DNA of 45,835 nucleotides from Tissierellia bacterium (GTDB lineage: Bacteria > Bacillota > Clostridia > Tissierellales > Tepidimicrobiaceae). Shown here in pieces: positions 4,670-43,783 of this stretch; within the stretch, counting starts at the first letter, position 1; each line of letters opens with the position of its first letter. The position numbers were made by a program, and so were the translations under genes. A model generated the notes under the pieces. The model had not been told where the DNA came from and did not search any database. It saw only the letters and a program-made list of their open reading frames with translations. The DNA lies in contig JAAYEM010000049.1 of assembly GCA_012728725.1 (NCBI GenBank), positions 1-45,835 of the forward strand, written 5' to 3'.

Positions 4670-6370
4670 TTACATCTTATCTGGAGCTTCAATACCTAGT
4701 AAGCCTAACCCTGTCTTTATTACCGTCTTGGCTGCATATACTAAATTTAGTCTAGCCTTCTTTAAATCTTCCTCTACTGTCATTATAGGACAGGAATTAT
4801 AGAATTTATTAAAGGCTTTAGCTATTTCAACTATATGTCGTGTAATAATAGAGGGTTCATATTTTTCTAAAGCATCTAGTACTGCCTTTGGGAAATTGTA
4901 CAATAATCTTATTAAATTTATTTCATCCTCATTTTGTAGCAAGCTATAGTCTACCCTATCCTCCAATTTAAACTGGCCTTTTCCCAACAAGCTATTTGCC
5001 CTTGCATGGGTATACTGTACATAGGGCCCAGTTTCTCCTTCAAAACTTAAAGTCCTATCCCAGGTAAAAACATAATCTTTAATCCTATTGTTGAATAGCT
5101 CTTGGAATATAACAGCACCTACTCCTACTTGTTTAGCAACTTCTTCTTTATTTTCAAGGTCTGGGTTTCTTTCCTCTATTATCTTCAAAGTGCTCTCAAT
5201 GGCCTTGTTTAATACATCTTCTAAAAATACAACTCTTCCTTGTCTAGTTGACAAGGTTCCATCTTCCAAGCTTACCATTCCAAAGGGTACATGGACACAA
5301 TCTTTAGCCCACTCATAACCCATTAGTTCAATAATTTTAAATAGCTGCTTAAAATGAAGATTTTGCTGGGAAGCTACTACATATATATTCTTATAAAAAT
5401 CATAATGCTCCTTTCTATATATGGCCGCAGCTATATCCCTTGTAATGTATAGGGTGGACCCGTCACTCTTTTTTATCAACACAGGGGGCATATCATAGGG
5501 CTCCAAATCTACAATATAAGCGCCTCTAGATTCTTTTAACAAGCCCTTTTCTTCCATTTCTTCTATCACTCTTGGCATCTTATCTGAATAGAAGCTCTCT
5601 CCAGCATAAGAATCGAATTCAATATTTAACAGTTCATACACCCTGTTAAATTCCTTTAGGCTAATATCCCTTATCCATTGCCAAAGCTCTAAAGCCTCTT
5701 CATTGCCTTCTTCTAACTCCTTGAACCAATATCTTGCCTCATCCTTTAAGCTCTCATCCTTTTCCGCTTCTGCATTAAATTTAACGTATAGTTTTAATAA
5801 CTCATTTATGGGATCTGCTTCTATTACCTCCATATCTCCCCATTTTTTGTATGCTGCTATAAGCATTCCAAATTGGGTACCGTAGTCCCCTAAATGATTT
5901 AACCTTACAGTATTAAAGCCTTGGAATTTAAATATCTTTTCAATAGAATTACCTATAACAGTAGTTCTTATATGGCCTATGTGAAAGGGTTTAGCAATAT
6001 TAGGAGAAGAAAACTCTACCAGCACCTTTCTTCCTTTTCCAATATTGGTAGAACCAAACTTTTCTTTTTCCTCCTTTATACTATCCAGTACTGTTTCAGT
6101 AAGTTTTACTTTGTTTATAAAGAAATTCACATAAGGTCCTACATTTTCCACCTTTTCAAAATATTCTCCCAGTTCTACTTTATTAGCTATTTCCTCTGCT
6201 ATTAGATTGGGAGCCTTCCTAAAAATTTTAGCCAATCTAAAACATGGAAAGGCATAGTCCCCCATATCATAATTGGGTGGTATTTCTATCAATGATTCAA
6301 TTTCTTCTTTATCTAAACTATCAACAACTTCATGAATTATACTAACTACTTCCTTTTTAAAATCAATCAT
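4670..6370 (-). CDS. argS: Arginyl-tRNA synthetase
   Basis: Class I synthetase charging tRNA-Arg with arginine and ATP; 566 residues from the chosen start, normal for the family. Visible signatures are the N-terminal additional domain, the HIGH motif in KPFHIGHIRTT near residue 125, the KMSK-equivalent LSTRQGRVV near 375, and the C-terminal DALR anticodon-binding domain ending in LLGIEAPDKM. The frame is open further upstream, but that extension lies inside the T-box terminator hairpin. The ATG at 6370 follows GGAGGAGG with correct spacing. It is the last gene of a minus-strand block and is preceded by its own T-box leader. Confidence 0.97.
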   Translation of the reverse strand: MIDFKKEVVSIIHEVVDSLDKEEIESLIEIPPNYDMGDYAFPCFRLAKIFRKAPNLIAEEIANKVELGEYFEKVENVGPYVNFFINKVKLTETVLDSIKEEKEKFGSTNIGKGRKVLVEFSSPNIAKPFHIGHIRTTVIGNSIEKIFKFQGFNTVRLNHLGDYGTQFGMLIAAYKKWGDMEVIEADPINELLKLYVKFNAEAEKDESLKDEARYWFKELEEGNEEALELWQWIRDISLKEFNRVYELLNIEFDSYAGESFYSDKMPRVIEEMEEKGLLKESRGAYIVDLEPYDMPPVLIKKSDGSTLYITRDIAAAIYRKEHYDFYKNIYVVASQQNLHFKQLFKIIELMGYEWAKDCVHVPFGMVSLEDGTLSTRQGRVVFLEDVLNKAIESTLKIIEERNPDLENKEEVAKQVGVGAVIFQELFNNRIKDYVFTWDRTLSFEGETGPYVQYTHARANSLLGKGQFKLEDRVDYSLLQNEDEINLIRLLYNFPKAVLDALEKYEPSIITRHIVEIAKAFNKFYNSCPIMTVEEDLKKARLNLVYAAKTVIKTGLGLLGIEAPDKM

Positions 6371-6400
6371 CCCTTTACCTCCTCCATATATAATCAACAA

Positions 6401-6600
6401 AGCTCCCATCTCACTAAGAGACGAGAGCTATCCCGTGGTACCACTCTTATTGGCAAAAGCCCACTCCAAGTCTTTAACGCAACTAGCGTAATATCCTACT
6501 AAATTTCAGATATAACCTCTGGGGCTCTCTTCAAATATATTCTTTTGTACTGGCTTCCACCAACCCAGCTCGCTATTACAAAGAATATACTCTACTCCCC
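6401..6600 (-). promoter_or_regulatory. T-box leader of argS, specifier AGA
   Basis: A T-box riboswitch senses uncharged tRNA and allows read-through into the synthetase gene. On the minus strand the T-box sequence AAGAGTGGTACCACGGG is at 6432-6448, its UGGU region pairing with the tRNA 3' end. Stem I contains AGTA on its 5' side and GAAG followed by AGA at 6526-6528 on its 3' side, in the same position as the specifiers in the thrS and valS leaders here. AGA is an arginine codon. The competing terminator is AGCTCTCGTCTC / GAGATGGGAGCT (about 6401-6429), followed by a weak T-run. Confidence 0.9.
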
Positions 6601-6634
6601 CCTTCATTGGATTTTATTATTTGGTATCGATTTT

Positions 6635-9060: not shown

Positions 9061-11484
9061 TTATATGACCCCTCTAAAATAATGGCCTTTAGTTATACTA
9101 TTTATATTTTTATAGTCTTTAATAAAACTTTCAACTTCATTCTTTGAAATTACACTTTTTGCAAAATTATAGTAAATTTCTTGCAGTTCATTAATTCCTT
9201 CATTCTCAATTGTAAAATCCAATCTAATCATATCTACACCACACTTATATATATGGTCTAAACTATCCAATACCATAAGGGGAACACTGTTATATATGGT
9301 GGTAAGCCCCTTATCTCTTTCCATATAAAAGTTTACACCTTTTCTATCTTTAAGTCCATAGCCTTTAGCATAGGGACATGATTTACACTTGGAACCATCC
9401 TTACAATTTTTCAGAAGGGCCATGGGACAATGTTTGGTTATCATCAACTTTAAATATCCATAGCCAATAGTTTCATAATACATGGAGCTTTTCTCACATA
9501 TCCCTTTTATTTGTTCCATATTTAATTCTGGAGACAAGGTAATGCTTGATAAGCCAGAATCCTTTAAAGCTTCTACTGTGAAACTATTAAATGTATTCAA
9601 TCCTATATCTCCATGCATATTCAAATTGAAATTATCTTTTACAAATTGGAGGGTACCTAGATTATCAATAGATACCCCATCTATTAAATCTTTAATTGGA
9701 TCTATCCTTTCCTTTAATCTAAATAAATCTTCCCCATACAATATCCTATCAGTTAGCAAATATACTTCTTTATTTTCCTTCTTAATCTCTAATATAGCCT
9801 CTTTTAATCCCTCATCAAAACCTATATAAACCCGATCCAATTTTTTTAAATCTAATTGTTCAAATTGTTCCTTTCTTAGAACAGAAATACTAATTCTTTT
9901 TGCATTTTTCTTCTCAATACTACTGGTCCTAAAGTATCTATCTAGCCTAGCTTTATATTCTTCATCAGTAATCTTGCTTCTTTTATTAAAATTTTTTCGG
10001 ATATTATCTAGAATTTCTATCCCTTCCCGTCTCAAACTATTTATGACACTAATGGGCATAAAGGAGCAGTCTTCTAGATTTACTTTTATACTATCAATAT
10101 AATATACAGTATCATTTAATTTGGATAATTGTTCTATAACCCTTTCCTTAGTTAAGGCAACCTTTTTACCCTTCTCCACTAAAAAATCTGATTGGATTTT
10201 AAAACTTTCTCCGTTAAATCTGATGATCAATTCAGCCGGTTTCCCTATTGATATATTAACCTCCATATGGATAGGAAATTTTATTTTATCTCCTTCATAG
10301 GATTTTTTAGCCCTTTCTAATAGATTGATACTGGAAGTCCTATAAACCTTGGAACCAACTGGCACTTTTTTTATCCTATCAATCTTTACTATACTCCCCT
10401 TTAGGGCTGAAAAATTCAAAATCTGGCCTATGTGCCTTCCTCTGGTAGTCTCTAACTCTATACCGTCCCCTTTTTCCACATCATAGTCTAACTTAATATA
10501 TAGATATCTACTATCCCTTTTTACTATCTTCCCTATATAAATGCCCCTGTTATCGGGCCTATCATAGGATGCAAATTTTCTTCCAAAATCCCCCAGAGGA
10601 AAACCTTTAGTAAATCCCCTATTAAATATTTGTAATATATCTTCCCTATCCTGATCCCTTAAAGCAGTAATTCCTTCATCTAATACTTTCCTGTAATTAT
10701 TAACCACTACTGCAACATATTCAGGCCTCTTCATCCTGCCTTCAATTTTTAAGGAATAAATGCCACTTTCAACTATTTTTTCTATATCCTCTAATGTATT
10801 TAAATCCCTTGGACTCAATAGGTACTTATTATTCCAGTCATTAAAAGGAGTGGACCCCTTATTAAAATCTATAATACTATAAGGCAATCTACAGGGTTGA
10901 GCACATTCCCCCCTATTTCCACTACGGCCCCCTATTATGCTACTCATAAGACATTGTCCTGAATAGCAAACACAAAGGGCGCCGTGAATAAAGCCTTCCA
11001 ACTCAATTTTAGTGGATTCATGTATCCTTTTAATTTCCTCTAAGGGAGTTTCCCTTGCCAATACAACCCTTTTAAATCCATATTTTTCCAAAAAAATAGC
11101 CCCAAATTGATTGTTTATTGTCATCTGGGTGCTAGCATGCAAATCCATATCTGGAAAAATATTTTTAATTAAATAGGCCAAACCTAAATCCTGAACTATA
11201 ATACCGTCCACATTGCTTTCATATAGATACTTTATATAATCTAATGCCTTATTCATCTCACCATCATCAATTAAAATATTGACAGTTACATATACCTTGA
11301 CATTCCTAAGATGGGCATACTCTACAGCAAACTTTAATTCTTCATTATCAAAATTTGAAGCATAATGCCTTGCATTAAATAGTTTTCCACCTAGATAAAC
11401 TGCATCTGCTCCATTTTGTATAGCTGCAAACAAATTCTCCATACTGCCTACAGGGGCTAATAATTCTACCTTTCTACTAATCAC
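9061..11484 (-). CDS. Peptidase U32 family protein with DUF3656 domain
   Basis: 807 residues beginning with the U32 signature region LLAPVGSMENLFAAIQNGADAVYLGG. The collagenase-type block includes EGFIHGALCVCYSGQC and GNRGECAQPCRLPY (about residues 165-200). Family knowledge links these cysteines to an iron-sulfur cluster, and U32 proteins such as RlhA and TrhP to prephenate-dependent hydroxylation of rRNA or tRNA. A DUF3656-like middle region follows, and a second partial U32-like module near the C-terminus has HCPMALLKNC and KCKSCPYAKG. The frame opens at a GTG (11484). A role in RNA hydroxylation is inference; a peptidase role is less likely. Confidence 0.85.
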   Translation of the reverse strand: MISRKVELLAPVGSMENLFAAIQNGADAVYLGGKLFNARHYASNFDNEELKFAVEYAHLRNVKVYVTVNILIDDGEMNKALDYIKYLYESNVDGIIVQDLGLAYLIKNIFPDMDLHASTQMTINNQFGAIFLEKYGFKRVVLARETPLEEIKRIHESTKIELEGFIHGALCVCYSGQCLMSSIIGGRSGNRGECAQPCRLPYSIIDFNKGSTPFNDWNNKYLLSPRDLNTLEDIEKIVESGIYSLKIEGRMKRPEYVAVVVNNYRKVLDEGITALRDQDREDILQIFNRGFTKGFPLGDFGRKFASYDRPDNRGIYIGKIVKRDSRYLYIKLDYDVEKGDGIELETTRGRHIGQILNFSALKGSIVKIDRIKKVPVGSKVYRTSSINLLERAKKSYEGDKIKFPIHMEVNISIGKPAELIIRFNGESFKIQSDFLVEKGKKVALTKERVIEQLSKLNDTVYYIDSIKVNLEDCSFMPISVINSLRREGIEILDNIRKNFNKRSKITDEEYKARLDRYFRTSSIEKKNAKRISISVLRKEQFEQLDLKKLDRVYIGFDEGLKEAILEIKKENKEVYLLTDRILYGEDLFRLKERIDPIKDLIDGVSIDNLGTLQFVKDNFNLNMHGDIGLNTFNSFTVEALKDSGLSSITLSPELNMEQIKGICEKSSMYYETIGYGYLKLMITKHCPMALLKNCKDGSKCKSCPYAKGYGLKDRKGVNFYMERDKGLTTIYNSVPLMVLDSLDHIYKCGVDMIRLDFTIENEGINELQEIYYNFAKSVISKNEVESFIKDYKNINSITKGHYFRGVI

Positions 11485-15698: not shown

Positions 15699-16496
15699 TT
15701 ATTGGATTCGCTGCCTCATAACTTCATACATTATAATAGATGAGGCTACCGCTACATTTAAAGACTCCGCCCCTCCTGCCATAGGTATTTTAATTAAATC
15801 ATCGGCTATAGATTCTAAAGTTTCTGAGACCCCTTTAGATTCATTTCCTATAATCAACAAGCCTCCCTCTTTAAAGTCTACATTTTGAATATATTTTTCC
15901 CCTTTAAGGGATGTAGAATAGGTTTTAATCTTATTCTTTTTAAATTCTTTTATAAGCTTTATTCCATCTTCCTCATGATATATAGGCACCCTGAAAATAG
16001 ATCCCATAGTGGCTCTGACCACCTTGGGATTATAAACATCCACACAACCCTTTGTAATCACTACACCATCAATTCCAAAGGCATCGGCAGTTCTGATAAT
16101 AGTACCCATATTTCCTGGATCTTGTACTCCATCTAACAATAGAAGAAAGGGGTTATCTTCTTTATTTATATCATTCATAGTATTTACCCGGAATTTGGCA
16201 ATGGCTAGTATCCCCTGAGGAGTCCCCATTTCTGATATTTCCCTGAATAATTTAGCTGGAACACACTTTAGATTTTGTAAGGAGCTTATACTATCAAACA
16301 ATTCTTTTCCACCATCTATATTGAATAGATCCTGGGAATAGATGATATACTTTAGGGGATAGCTGTTGTCTATACATTCCTTAACCATCTTTACCCCTTC
16401 AACAATGAATAATTTCTTATCCCACCGGCCCTTTTTTCTATATAAACTCTTAATCTCCTTAATTATAGGATTTGAAGGACTAGTTATATCTACCAT
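15699..16496 (-). CDS. TrmH/SpoU family RNA 2'-O-methyltransferase
   Basis: 265 residues from the ATG at 16496. The N-terminal substrate-binding domain (about 1-95) is followed by the SPOUT knot: motif 1 DGVQDPGNMGTIIRTADAFG near 125, motif 2 LLIIGNESKGVS near 205, motif 3 IPMAGGAESLNVAVASSI near 230. It transfers a methyl group from SAM to a ribose 2'-OH in RNA. The position next to pheST matches B. subtilis YsgA (RlmP), a 23S rRNA methylase; that orthology is inference. The frame is open further up inside ktrA, but the ATG one base after the ktrA stop is a better start. Confidence 0.9.
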   Translation of the reverse strand: MVDITSPSNPIIKEIKSLYRKKGRWDKKLFIVEGVKMVKECIDNSYPLKYIIYSQDLFNIDGGKELFDSISSLQNLKCVPAKLFREISEMGTPQGILAIAKFRVNTMNDINKEDNPFLLLLDGVQDPGNMGTIIRTADAFGIDGVVITKGCVDVYNPKVVRATMGSIFRVPIYHEEDGIKLIKEFKKNKIKTYSTSLKGEKYIQNVDFKEGGLLIIGNESKGVSETLESIADDLIKIPMAGGAESLNVAVASSIIMYEVMRQRIQ

Positions 16497-16497
16497 A

Positions 16498-16977
16498 TTA
16501 ATCACCAGCACTTTTTTCAATTCTCCGTATATCCGAGGTGCTTCCAATTACCACCAATATATCTTCTTTCAATACAATATCATTTGCATTATGGGCTACC
16601 CTTACTCCCATATCCCTTTCCGGATATACCACCTTGTCAGCACCTATTTTAGATAAAACTTTTCCATGTAGAATATCATGGGCCTTTGCAACAACCCTTT
16701 TTACCCCCAATTCTTTAGCTATTAAAGTAGCCATAATTGAAGCCTGGTAATTTGAACCAATACTTATAATTGCAGCATCAAAATTCCCTATACCCAATTC
16801 CTTTAATACATTTTCATCGGTAACGTCTGCCTGAACTGCATAGGTCACCTCTTCTGATATATCCTGGACTCTTTCACCATCTATATCAATGGCTAACACC
16901 TCATACCCTAAACTACTAAGGGTTCTTGCAATGCTGGACCCAAATCTTCCACAGCCAATTACAACAAACTGTTTCAC
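16498..16977 (-). CDS. ktrA: KtrA-type potassium channel regulator, internally shortened
   Basis: An RCK-type cytoplasmic regulator that gates the KtrB potassium channel. Residues 1-130 are a complete RCK_N Rossmann domain: GCGRFG at 8-13, an acidic AIDID at the end of beta-2, and ERDMGVRVAHN at 120-130. The sequence then jumps to ANDIVLKEDILVVIGSTSDI, which in full-length relatives is the last strand of the C-terminal RCK_C domain. About 60 residues are missing in frame, giving 159 residues against the usual ~215-220. RCK_C binds c-di-AMP in relatives, so that control is probably lost. GTG start, 12 bases after ktrB. It may be a pseudogene or an assembly error. Confidence 0.85.
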   Translation of the reverse strand: MKQFVVIGCGRFGSSIARTLSSLGYEVLAIDIDGERVQDISEEVTYAVQADVTDENVLKELGIGNFDAAIISIGSNYQASIMATLIAKELGVKRVVAKAHDILHGKVLSKIGADKVVYPERDMGVRVAHNANDIVLKEDILVVIGSTSDIRRIEKSAGD

Positions 16978-16989
16978 TTGAACATCCCC

Positions 16990-18120
16990 CTATCCCACTA
17001 TTATATTCCCTTCCGAGTATCTATAGGAATATTGTTTATTCTTTCTAGCAAAGGCAAAAGCCATAGTCAAGGGTCCCAGCATACCTATAGTTACCGTTAT
17101 TATTATTTTCCCAATAGTTGATAAATTAGGGGTAATTCCTCTAGTCAACCTAACTATCCCAAAAGTTGTAGTTTTAATACCCCCTGCAGTTGAACCAGGG
17201 GAACCTCCAATAAACATAAGTATTGTCATAAAAAATGCAGTAGTATCTTTTAATGAGTTAATATCCACCGAATAAAATCCTGCACTCCTTGTGTTAACCG
17301 ATTGAAAAAAAGAAGAAAGGATTTTTTCTCTTTGGGATAACTGTAACAGGGTATCAGGATTATCTCTTTCAATTACATAGAATATCAGCATACCACTAAT
17401 AATCAAAATTAAAGAAATACTAATGACTAATTTTGAATGGAGATGCAGCTTTTTAAAGCTTTTTTGATTCAATATATCAATATATACTGAAAAGCCCAAT
17501 CCACCTACAATAACTAATAAGGCAATTGTGATATTGATTATAGTATTACCCACATAAGGAATCATGTTATTCCCTAAAATATCTATACCAGCATTACAAA
17601 AAGCAGAAATAGAATGAAAAACTGAAAACCATATACCTTTAGTTAATCCATATTGGGGAATAAATACGGTGGATAATATTATAGCCCCTAAAGCCTCTAT
17701 TATAAAGGTAGATAGTATTATATACCTTATCAGTTTTACCATTCCGGAAATGGTTTCCTGGTTTAATTCCTCTTTTATCATCAACCTTTCCTTTAAAGTT
17801 ATCCTTTTTCCCATCAATAAAGCCACTATTGTAGCCAAGGTCATAAAACCTAAACCACCAATTTGAACCAATATTAGTATAACTACTTGCCCAAATAAGG
17901 ACCAGTGTTCTGCCATATTTACTAAAGATAAGCCAGTAACACAAACTATTGAAGTGGCTGTAAACAATGCATCTATAACTCCAATACTCTCTCCCTTTTT
18001 ACTGGCAATGGGTAAACTTAATAATATAGCTCCTATAAGTATTAAAGCTAAAAAGCCTAAAGCCAACACCCTAGGTGGATTCAATTTAAATTTATCTAAT
18101 CTTTCTCCTACTGTATTCAT
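16990..18120 (-). CDS. ktrB: KtrB/TrkH-type potassium transporter, internally shortened
   Basis: Membrane subunit of a potassium uptake system, normally ~440-450 residues in four M1-P-M2 repeats; this one has 376. Filters 1-3 are visible with their glycines (CVTGL near 60, CNAGI near 175, RSAGF near 280). After GGSPGSTAGGIKTTTFGIV (about 305-323) the sequence jumps to RLTRGITPNLS, which aligns with the fourth filter (usually TVGLSTGITPNLS). About 70 residues are gone in frame: the end of repeat 3, its loop, M1 of repeat 4 and the pore helix. The fourth filter glycine is Arg, and two more residues are missing before IGMLGPLT. Good site GGGAGG at the start. Confidence 0.85.
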   Translation of the reverse strand: MNTVGERLDKFKLNPPRVLALGFLALILIGAILLSLPIASKKGESIGVIDALFTATSIVCVTGLSLVNMAEHWSLFGQVVILILVQIGGLGFMTLATIVALLMGKRITLKERLMIKEELNQETISGMVKLIRYIILSTFIIEALGAIILSTVFIPQYGLTKGIWFSVFHSISAFCNAGIDILGNNMIPYVGNTIINITIALLVIVGGLGFSVYIDILNQKSFKKLHLHSKLVISISLILIISGMLIFYVIERDNPDTLLQLSQREKILSSFFQSVNTRSAGFYSVDINSLKDTTAFFMTILMFIGGSPGSTAGGIKTTTFGIVRLTRGITPNLSTIGKIIITVTIGMLGPLTMAFAFARKNKQYSYRYSEGNIIVG

Positions 18121-18197: not shown

Positions 18198-18221
18198 AAA
18201 AGCTCCGTAACCGGAACTTTT
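18198..18221 (-). terminator. Terminator of infC-rpmI-rplT
   Basis: On the minus strand AAAAGTTCCG / CGGAGCTTTT with a 4-base loop, then AATTTTT. It overlaps the rplT stop codon and closes the ribosomal operon before ktrB. Confidence 0.8.
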
Positions 18222-18573
18222 AACAATTACTCTTTGCAATTTCAACTAATTTTGAAAAACCTTCAGGATCATGTATAGCCATTTCAGATAACACTTTTCT
18301 ATTGATTTCAATATTTGCCTTTTTAAGTCCATTTATAAATGTACTATAGTTCATTCCATTTAATCTAGCAGCTGCATTTATTCTTGAGATCCAAAGTTTT
18401 CTAAAATCTCTCTTTCTTTGCTTACGTCCTGAATAAGCATAGCTTAAAGATTTCATAACAGCTTGATTAGCTGGTCTATATAATTTGCTCTTGGCACCAT
18501 AATATCCTTTAGCTTGTTTCAATACTTTTTTATGTCTTTTTCTTGCTGTCACTCCACTCTTTACTCTTGCCAT
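18220..18573 (-). CDS. rplT: 50S ribosomal protein L20
   Basis: 117 residues, the usual length. It begins [20 protein letters not shown] with the conserved RNA-binding basic N-terminus, then [18 protein letters not shown] and [19 protein letters not shown]. It is an early 23S rRNA binder needed for 50S assembly. In Firmicutes L20 represses its own operon through the infC leader, and such a leader is present at 19355-19500. The site AAAGGAGG precedes the ATG. It is the last gene of infC-rpmI-rplT. Confidence 0.98.
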
Positions 18574-28144: not shown

Positions 28145-28219
<75 letters not shown>

Positions 28220-28220
28220 A

Positions 28221-28295
28221 TGGAGCGGAAGACGGGATTCGAACCCGCGACCCTCGCCTTGGCAAGGCGATGCTCTACCACTGAGCCACTTCCGC
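28221..28295 (-). tRNA. tRNA-Gly (GCC)
   Basis: On the minus strand acceptor arm GCGGAAG / CTTCCGC, D-loop GGCTCAGTGGTAGAGC, anticodon loop TTGCCAA giving GCC, T-loop GTTCGAATC, discriminator T and encoded CCA. It is separated from tRNA-Cys by one base. Confidence 0.95.
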
Positions 28296-28306
28296 AAAAG
28301 CTATAT

Positions 28307-28382
<76 letters not shown>

Positions 28383-40842: not shown

Positions 40843-43494
40843 TTATTGATTAGATTTTAGGCTAGCAAGCCTTTCCACTACTTTTTCCATCATATCCTCG
40901 TATTTCTTTAGTTTTTCCCTTTCCTTAGCCACTATATGTTCTGGAGCCTTATTTACAAAATCCTTATTGGATAGTTTGCCCCTTGCCCTTTTTAGCTCAT
41001 CTTCTATTTTCTCCTTTTCTTTTTCCAGTCTCTCTATTTCCTTATCAAAATCTATCAAATCCTTTAATGGAACAAATATCTCACATCTATCCAATACCAC
41101 TGAAACATTATCTTCTCCTAGATTGTTTTTGTCTTCTTGAATTATTATATTTTCTCCACTGGCTAAGTTGATAAAATATCTCTTGCCATAATCTATTATA
41201 TCCTTTATCTTTTCATCTTTGGTTACAAATATAATTGTGGCCTTTTTGGATGGCGGAATATTCATTTCCTGTCTTGCATTTCTTATGCCCTTAATGGCAT
41301 CCATAATAAATGCCATCCTTTTTTCAGCCTCCAAATCCTTATTCTTCTCATCATATACAGGCCATTTACTTACAATCAATGCTTCTTTTCTTTGAGGTAG
41401 GTGCTGCCATATTTCCTCTGTAATAAAGGGCATAAAGGGATGGAGTAATTTTAGTATATTTTCCAACACCTTAATCAGAACCTTCTCTGCTGTTTCTTTG
41501 CTATCTTTATTATTTCCATATAATCTAGGTTTAACCATTTCAATGTACCAGTCACAATATTCATCCCATATGAAGTCATAAATCTTTTGAGCTGCAAGAC
41601 CAATTTCATATTTTTCTAGATTTTCTGTAACCTCTTTTATAACGGTATTAATTCTAGATAATATCCATTTATCCTCCTCTTCTAGCAACTCACTATCAAT
41701 ATCTTCCATGGCAACTTCTTCATCCAAATTCATCAATACAAACCTGGTAGCATTCCACAATTTATTGGCAAAATTCCTATTAGCCTCTACCCTTTCCATG
41801 GAAAATCTCATATCATTTCCTGGAGTATTGCCTGTAACCAAAGTAAACCTTAAAGCATCAGCCCCGTATTCGTTAATTACATACAAAGGATCGATGCCGT
41901 TTCCTAAGGATTTACTCATCTTTCTGCCTAAAGCATCCCTTACCAAGCCTGTTAACAGCACATCTTTAAAAGGTACCTTTCCTGTTTGTTCTAAACTTGA
42001 GAATACCATTCTAACTACCCAGAAAAATATAATATCGTAGCCGGTAATTAAAACATCTGTTGGGAAGAAATACTGTAAATCCTCTGTATTTTCTGGCCAT
42101 CCTAATGTGGAGAAGGGCCATAAAGCCGATGAAAACCATGTGTCTAAAGTATCTGGATCCTGATATATATTTTCACTATCACATTTAGTACATTTTTCAG
42201 GCGCCTCTCTAGATACCATAGTTTCTCCACAATCTTCACAATAGTATACAGGCAATCTATGGCCCCACCACAATTGCCTTGAAATACACCAGTCTTTAAT
42301 GCCTTCCAACCAATGGGTATAAATTTTACCAAATCTATCAGGTATAAAGTTTAACTCCCCATTATAATAGGCTTGTAATGCTGGCTTAGCCAAAGGCTCC
42401 ATCTTAACAAACCACTGTTTGGATATTAATGGTTCTACAACCGTCTTACACCTTTCACAATGACCAACACTATTATCGTGATCCTTTACTTCCACCAAAT
42501 ATCCTTCTTCTTCTAAATCTTCAACAATCCTTTTTCTTGCCTCATACCTATCCAATCCATTATATTTGCCGCCATTTTCATTTATAGTTCCATCCTCATT
42601 CATTATTATGCACTGACCTAGATTATGCCTTTCTCCAACCTCAAAATCATTTGGATCATGGGATGGAGTTATCTTTACTGCCCCGGTTCCAAATTCCATA
42701 TCCACATAGTCATCAGCAATTATAGGTATTTCCCTATTTACTAGTGGTAGTATGGCAGTCTTGCCAATAAGATCCTTATACCTTTCATCTTCGGGATTTA
42801 CAGCCACAGCCAAATCCCCTAACATGGTTTCTGGCCTTGTAGTAGCTATGGTTATAAATCTATCTTCACCCTTTATAGGGTATCTTATATGCCATATATT
42901 TCCCAGAGTATCCTTATGCTCTACCTCTGCATCAGATATGGCGGTTTTACAACTTGGACACCAATTGATAATCCTATCTCCCCTATATATTAGGCCCTTT
43001 TCGTATAGCCTAATGAATACTTCCTCTACAGCCCTACTCAATCCTTCATCAAGGGTAAATCTTTTCCTGCTCCAATCACAGGACACACCTAATTTTTCAA
43101 GCTGATTATATATAGTGCCCCCATATTTCCTGGTCCAATCCCAAGCCTCCTCAATAAAAGCTTCTCTACCTAATTCCTCTTTGGTTTTACCCTCAGCACT
43201 GATTTTTTCCACTACCTTTGCTTCAGTAGAAATACTAGCATGGTCAGTTCCAGGTAACCATAATGTCTCGTATCCTTCCATCCTCATCCATCTAATTAAA
43301 ACATCCTGGATGGTATTGTTTAATGCATGCCCCATATGAAGATTGCCTGTAACATTAGGAGGAGGCATCATAATAGTAAAGGGCTTTTTATTCCTATCTA
43401 CCTTAGCTTTAAAATACTCATTATCCTTCCAAAACTTATACAATCTATCTTCAAAATCCTTAGGATTATAGGTTTTTGGTAAATTCTCTACCAT
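40843..43494 (-). CDS. valS: Valyl-tRNA synthetase
   Basis: 883 residues, normal length. The class I HIGH motif is in [18 protein letters not shown] near 50 and KMSKS in [14 protein letters not shown] near 525. The CP1 editing domain lies at about 190-350, with zinc-type CPSC and [13 protein letters not shown] clusters. The anticodon-binding domain starts near 610, and the C-terminal arm (about 815-883) is a coiled coil as usual. It charges tRNA-Val and edits Thr-tRNA. The site GAAGGAGG precedes the ATG. A T-box leader lies upstream. Confidence 0.97.
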
Positions 43495-43530: not shown

Positions 43531-43765
43531 AAAACCCTTCATCCAAAAATATAAGGACGAAGGGCTTATTCGCGGTACCACCTTATTTCTATAGATAAAC
43601 TATAGCTCTCTAGATTGATAACGGATATCACCGTTTAAGCCTACTTTACTTTCGGCTTAAATACTCAGAAGCTACCTTCAGTAATCATTGCCCAAAAAGT
43701 CTCTCAGCCTAAGGACTTTCTCTCTGTATAGGATGATTACCTACTCCTCTTCCTCATAGTATTGT
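43531..43765 (-). promoter_or_regulatory. T-box leader of valS, specifier GTA
   Basis: On the minus strand the T-box AAGGTGGTACCGCG is at 43571-43584. Stem I has AGTA on its 5' side and GAAG then GTA (43673-43675) on its 3' side; GTA is a valine codon. The terminator AGCCCTTCGTCC / GGATGAAGGGTT followed by TTTT is at about 43531-43565. Together with the promoter it fills most of the 386-base gap between pgsA and valS. Confidence 0.93.
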
Positions 43766-43783
43766 ATAAAATTGTTAGTAAAT

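Follow-up and report, generated by a model that had tools for sequence, protein, structure and literature searches.

In the window, the 45,835-nucleotide stretch of DNA analysed here, a ktrA gene that has lost most of its RCK_C domain lies beside a ktrB gene broken in its pore region. Since ktrB was broken too, the pair most likely represents a dying spare K+-uptake operon and not a minimal regulator of a new kind, and we consider it highly probable that a redundant KtrAB operon is in recent decay through deletions that preserve the reading frame. The features of the locus were as follows.

15699..16496, minus strand: trmH (TrmH-family RNA methyltransferase), intact, downstream, followed by pheS and pheT
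16494..16515, minus strand: ktrA 3' end and trmH initiation region (GTGCTGGTGATTAATATG), with the ktrA TAA at 16500-16498 and the trmH ATG at 16496-16494
16498..16977, minus strand: ktrA remnant, 159 aa, GTG start, intact RCK_N (residues 1-130) and last 29 residues of RCK_C
16587..16588, minus strand: joint of the in-frame ktrA deletion (59 aa, 177 bp), from alignment with relatives
16990..18120, minus strand: ktrB remnant, 376 aa versus 447 in 8 family relatives, two in-frame deletions and key residues lost
17085..17086, minus strand: joint of the 2-aa ktrB deletion, beside the conserved D4M2 Arg
17149..17151, minus strand: ktrB codon 324, fourth selectivity-filter Gly (G393 of relatives) changed to Arg, from alignment
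17163..17164, minus strand: joint of the 69-aa ktrB deletion, after GGIKTTT, helix D4M1 and pore helix 4 removed
18220..18573, minus strand: rplT (L20), intact, upstream border of the locus

Outside this locus, the window carried on the minus strand the 5' end of a 16S rRNA gene running off the contig start (1-222), three consecutive tRNA genes (28148-28382) and two T-box leaders (6414-6616 and 43550-43766), each preceding a large ORF (4670-6409 and 40843-43494). The product of the ORF at 9061-11484 (807 aa) had orthologues about 70 residues shorter at L117, L119, L120 and L115.

The shortened ktrA and its partner

The ktrA frame at 16498-16977 had 159 codons and zero internal stops. The sequence-only reading had described a complete RCK_N to residue 130, a direct in-frame joint near 16588, the absence of about 60 RCK_C residues and a frame free of stop codons, and each of these points was confirmed by the reading frame itself, its coordinates and the alignment with family relatives. 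The N130 codon occupies 16590-16588 and A131 begins at 16587; the alignment was gap-free to N130 and resumed 59 residues further on, so that exactly 59 aa were gone from a protein of 159 aa in the window versus 217-218 aa in the relatives. The missing block (residues 131-189 of a full-length relative) reads LVSSNILDF...INVSPY in the relatives and accounts for 57 of the 83 residues aligning with the RCK_C structure of S. aureus KtrA (4xtt). Only about 2 bp of sequence was shared at the ktrA breakpoints in relatives.

The window protein resembles KtrA, the KtrAB regulator, in its RCK_N with the GxGxxG nucleotide motif (VIGCGRFG) and in the gene order rplT-ktrB-ktrA-trmH-pheS, being encoded beside its KtrB partner with rplT upstream and trmH downstream. 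Residues 1-130 were 81-86% identical to the closest four family members, and Pfam TrkA_N (PF02254, RCK_N) matched residues 4-119 with an E-value of 4e-33. It differs in that most of the c-di-AMP domain is gone (59 of approximately 85 RCK_C residues); TrkA_C matched in its second half only, with 16.7 bits against a cut-off of 27, so that RCK_C was not recognized. In reviews, RCK_C is given as the c-di-AMP site of KtrA.

The sequence-only reading was right about the shortening of KtrA but missed the damage in the adjoining ktrB, where two further in-frame deletions were found. KtrB belongs to the TrkH/KtrB pore family (Pfam PF02386), and the window protein keeps repeats D1-D3 and the C-terminal end, with approximately 65-73% identity over residues 1-325. 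A functional KtrB has four M1-P-M2 repeats with a filter glycine each, whereas the window protein has lost D4M1 and pore helix 4 from repeat 4 (assigned from the KtrB repeat layout in PMC5449183) and carries Arg for the fourth filter Gly. According to its title, Tholema 2005 (cited in PMC5449183) reports that KtrB needs each of its four filter glycines for selective uptake with high affinity. Codon 347 encodes Met in place of the conserved D4M2 arginine, which is R418 in relatives, R417 in B. subtilis and R427 in V. alginolyticus and has a gating role described in PMC5449183. The 2-aa loss also lies in D4M2, before the conserved Gly-Arg near the C-terminal end, and is in frame. Judged from these losses, the window KtrB is probably dead, with no working K+ pore.

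No other KtrA or KtrB copy was found in the window genome, the other RCK matches being two halves of one TrkA. A complete TrkA and TrkH were encoded on contig C99, and K+ uptake through TrkAH may have made KtrAB expendable. TrkH was also complete in most family genomes without KtrB; none was seen in G004 and G013 and a fragment only in G018, completeness being near 80% for G013 and G018. Kdp was rejected as a replacement transporter, as KdpA was absent from all 20 family genomes. Diadenylate cyclase domains were present in the window genome, indicating that the c-di-AMP signal probably exists, and no c-di-AMP riboswitch was detected in the window at the gathering threshold.

Reality and age of the deletions

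The 59, 69 and 2 aa deletions were absent from all close relatives. An assembly or binning artefact, in which a genome with normal ktrA and ktrB had 177, 207 and 6 bp dropped by the assembler, might be suspected from a draft of 108 contigs with 92% completeness, and collapse had been offered in the sequence-only reading. We regard it as improbable, because the deletions are confined to two partner genes and no long repeat lies at the breakpoints. In twelve further window proteins, which together exceed 5,700 residues and were each compared with four to ten relatives, 0 window-only internal deletions were counted, versus 3 in the ktr genes. Each of the three losses is a multiple of three; the two genes hit are functional partners, and ktrB additionally carries G393R, R418M and a substitution rate raised threefold. 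Relatives, moreover, lose the same genes. In relatives, the longest breakpoint repeat, found at both ends of the 69-aa ktrB deletion, was direct and no longer than 7 bp (CTTTTGG, closest match), too short to collapse an assembly. Repeats of this length would suit slippage or illegitimate recombination in the cell.

Substitution rates were compared with those of five neighbour genes in the same genome (TrmH, PheS, PheT, ZapA and one more). Across columns without variation in seven relatives, KtrB had changed at 31 of 221 sites versus 53 of 1131 in the neighbours (Fisher p = 2e-6), a rate three times theirs, and a comparable KtrB excess was absent in all three relatives tested alike. The KtrB amino-acid branch was 0.32 for the window versus 0.19 for G003, whereas on the housekeeping tree the branches were 0.24 and 0.36, respectively. 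The retained part of KtrA showed 8 changes in 101 such columns, including the GTG start, and was not distinguishable from the neighbours (p = 0.15). As KtrA was not clearly accelerated, its deletion looks recent; ktrB may have been relaxed first, with the ktrA deletion the more recent event.

In a two-ratio codon model, dN/dS on the window branch was 0.07 for KtrA, 0.08 for KtrB, 0.06 for PheS and 0.10 for TrmH; the branch is long with synonymous sites near saturation, and these values do not date the interval after the deletions. The ratios, well below 1 and similar to those of the neighbours, indicate that most of the long window branch was under selection. Together with the open frames, they are compatible with decay that set in late on a long branch or with constraint that partly persists.

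The locus across the family

The order rplT-ktrB-ktrA-trmH-pheS was also found in many other Tissierellales, Peptostreptococcaceae and Negativicutes. Such a widespread arrangement is therefore old, and an empty locus means that the genes were lost. The locus was intact in seven family genomes (G017, G012, G019, G003, G010, G011 and G008). In G016 (L125, 8310-8774), ktrA had an in-frame TAG after residue 93 with an intact ktrB ahead of it; in G001, ktrB was lost and ktrA frameshifted; in G018 (L122, 7177-7980), ktrB was lost and a full-length ktrA kept at the locus. A full-length ktrA at the locus without a preceding ktrB was also seen in Candidatus Petromonas (L052, near 5537-6390). Neither gene was present between rplT and trmH in seven genomes (G004, G005, G006, G007, G009, G014 and G015), two of which (G006 and G014) had ktrB elsewhere in the genome.

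In three of the emptied genomes (G007, G004 and G014), ktrA has left its final bases (GCTGGTGA) and its stop a few bases before the trmH start, and these leftover 3' bases mark losses. In the corresponding rplT-trmH intervals L141 (G007), L142 (G004) and L147 (G014), the scar of the ktrA end at the trmH initiation site read GTGCTGGTGAATAA and similar.

These positions may explain how the deletions came to be in frame. The trmH start lies one base past the ktrA stop, and the likely trmH ribosome-binding bases, as read from the sequence, fall inside the last ktrA codons. Deletions may have stayed in frame because translation must reach the ktrA 3' end; ribosomes running to that end would cause the least disturbance to trmH, pheS and pheT. 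The rule is not absolute, as shown by the stop in G016 and the frameshift in G001.

The sequence-only reading had proposed a search for the same short form in other strains. The search was run across the order, with the window genome as the single representative of its genus, and no second unbroken short KtrA was found among the matches listed from 249 genomes; nor was a compact, long-standing family form seen among them. Nearly all KtrA matches listed had open frames of at least about 215 codons from stop to stop, and the other complete, unbroken KtrAs readable in the order were approximately 214-230 aa long. Two other frames among the matches listed looked short without a stop in the match. 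One (170, G235) was rejected as a second natural short KtrA since its frame was cut by a contig end, and that of G001 was rejected since its ktrA was frameshifted. Another KtrA match in the order, L152 (G126, contig C157, 19637-20029), contained an internal TAA.

Decay or a retained regulator

The sequence-only reading had named a minimal KtrA freed from c-di-AMP control and a recent decaying allele among its explanations. The second was upheld, and for the whole operon; the first found no support, as the KtrB pore is broken and loss of RCK_C in B. subtilis ends ATP stimulation. A working minimal KtrA that still gates a channel would agree with the open frame and the well-conserved RCK_N, and B. 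subtilis RCK_N on its own assembles into an octameric ring and binds both ATP and ADP (PMC4714889). The closest known counterpart is KtrA-deltaC of B. subtilis, a laboratory construct (5BUT, PMC4714889) which, like the window KtrA, consists of RCK_N without the c-di-AMP domain. In the construct the whole C domain is absent and the KtrB partner is wild-type; even so, ATP stimulation was lost and KtrB remained at low activity whatever the nucleotide (PMC4714889). A KtrA without RCK_C would lose its c-di-AMP input, but the reported effect of this truncation is loss of activation, in the window beside a broken pore. The window genome yielded no further KtrB-type protein, only TrkH beside its own TrkA, and no second unbroken short form occurred among the matches listed in the order. 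A minimal KtrA of this kind is thus extremely improbable.

Alternatively, the short KtrA could be retained for a different role; it might, for instance, form an orphan nucleotide-binding ring that acts on TrkH or on some other partner. The retained part was not accelerated although KtrB was, and in G018 and Candidatus Petromonas a full-length ktrA is present at the locus with no ktrB. However, the orphan KtrA of G018 has a long branch (0.32 versus 0.20 in G003), the gene is frameshifted in G001 and stopped in G016, and seven family genomes have emptied the locus, so that we hold such a role to be very unlikely. A natural KtrA with RCK_N alone, no longer sensing c-di-AMP and kept after the death of its own KtrB to act on another channel such as TrkH, is extremely improbable. 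Under decay of the whole operon, the preferred reading, the truncated KtrB would be unable to form a working K+ pore and the truncated KtrA would regulate nothing.

At one fixed locus in a single family, the stepwise loss of a transporter can be followed through intact, stopped, frameshifted, shortened and emptied stages; in three genomes the trmH start site is the last piece to survive. Before an in-frame domain loss in a regulator is taken as a new regulatory architecture, the partner gene should be considered with it. The locus is a modest but clean case of ion-transporter loss.
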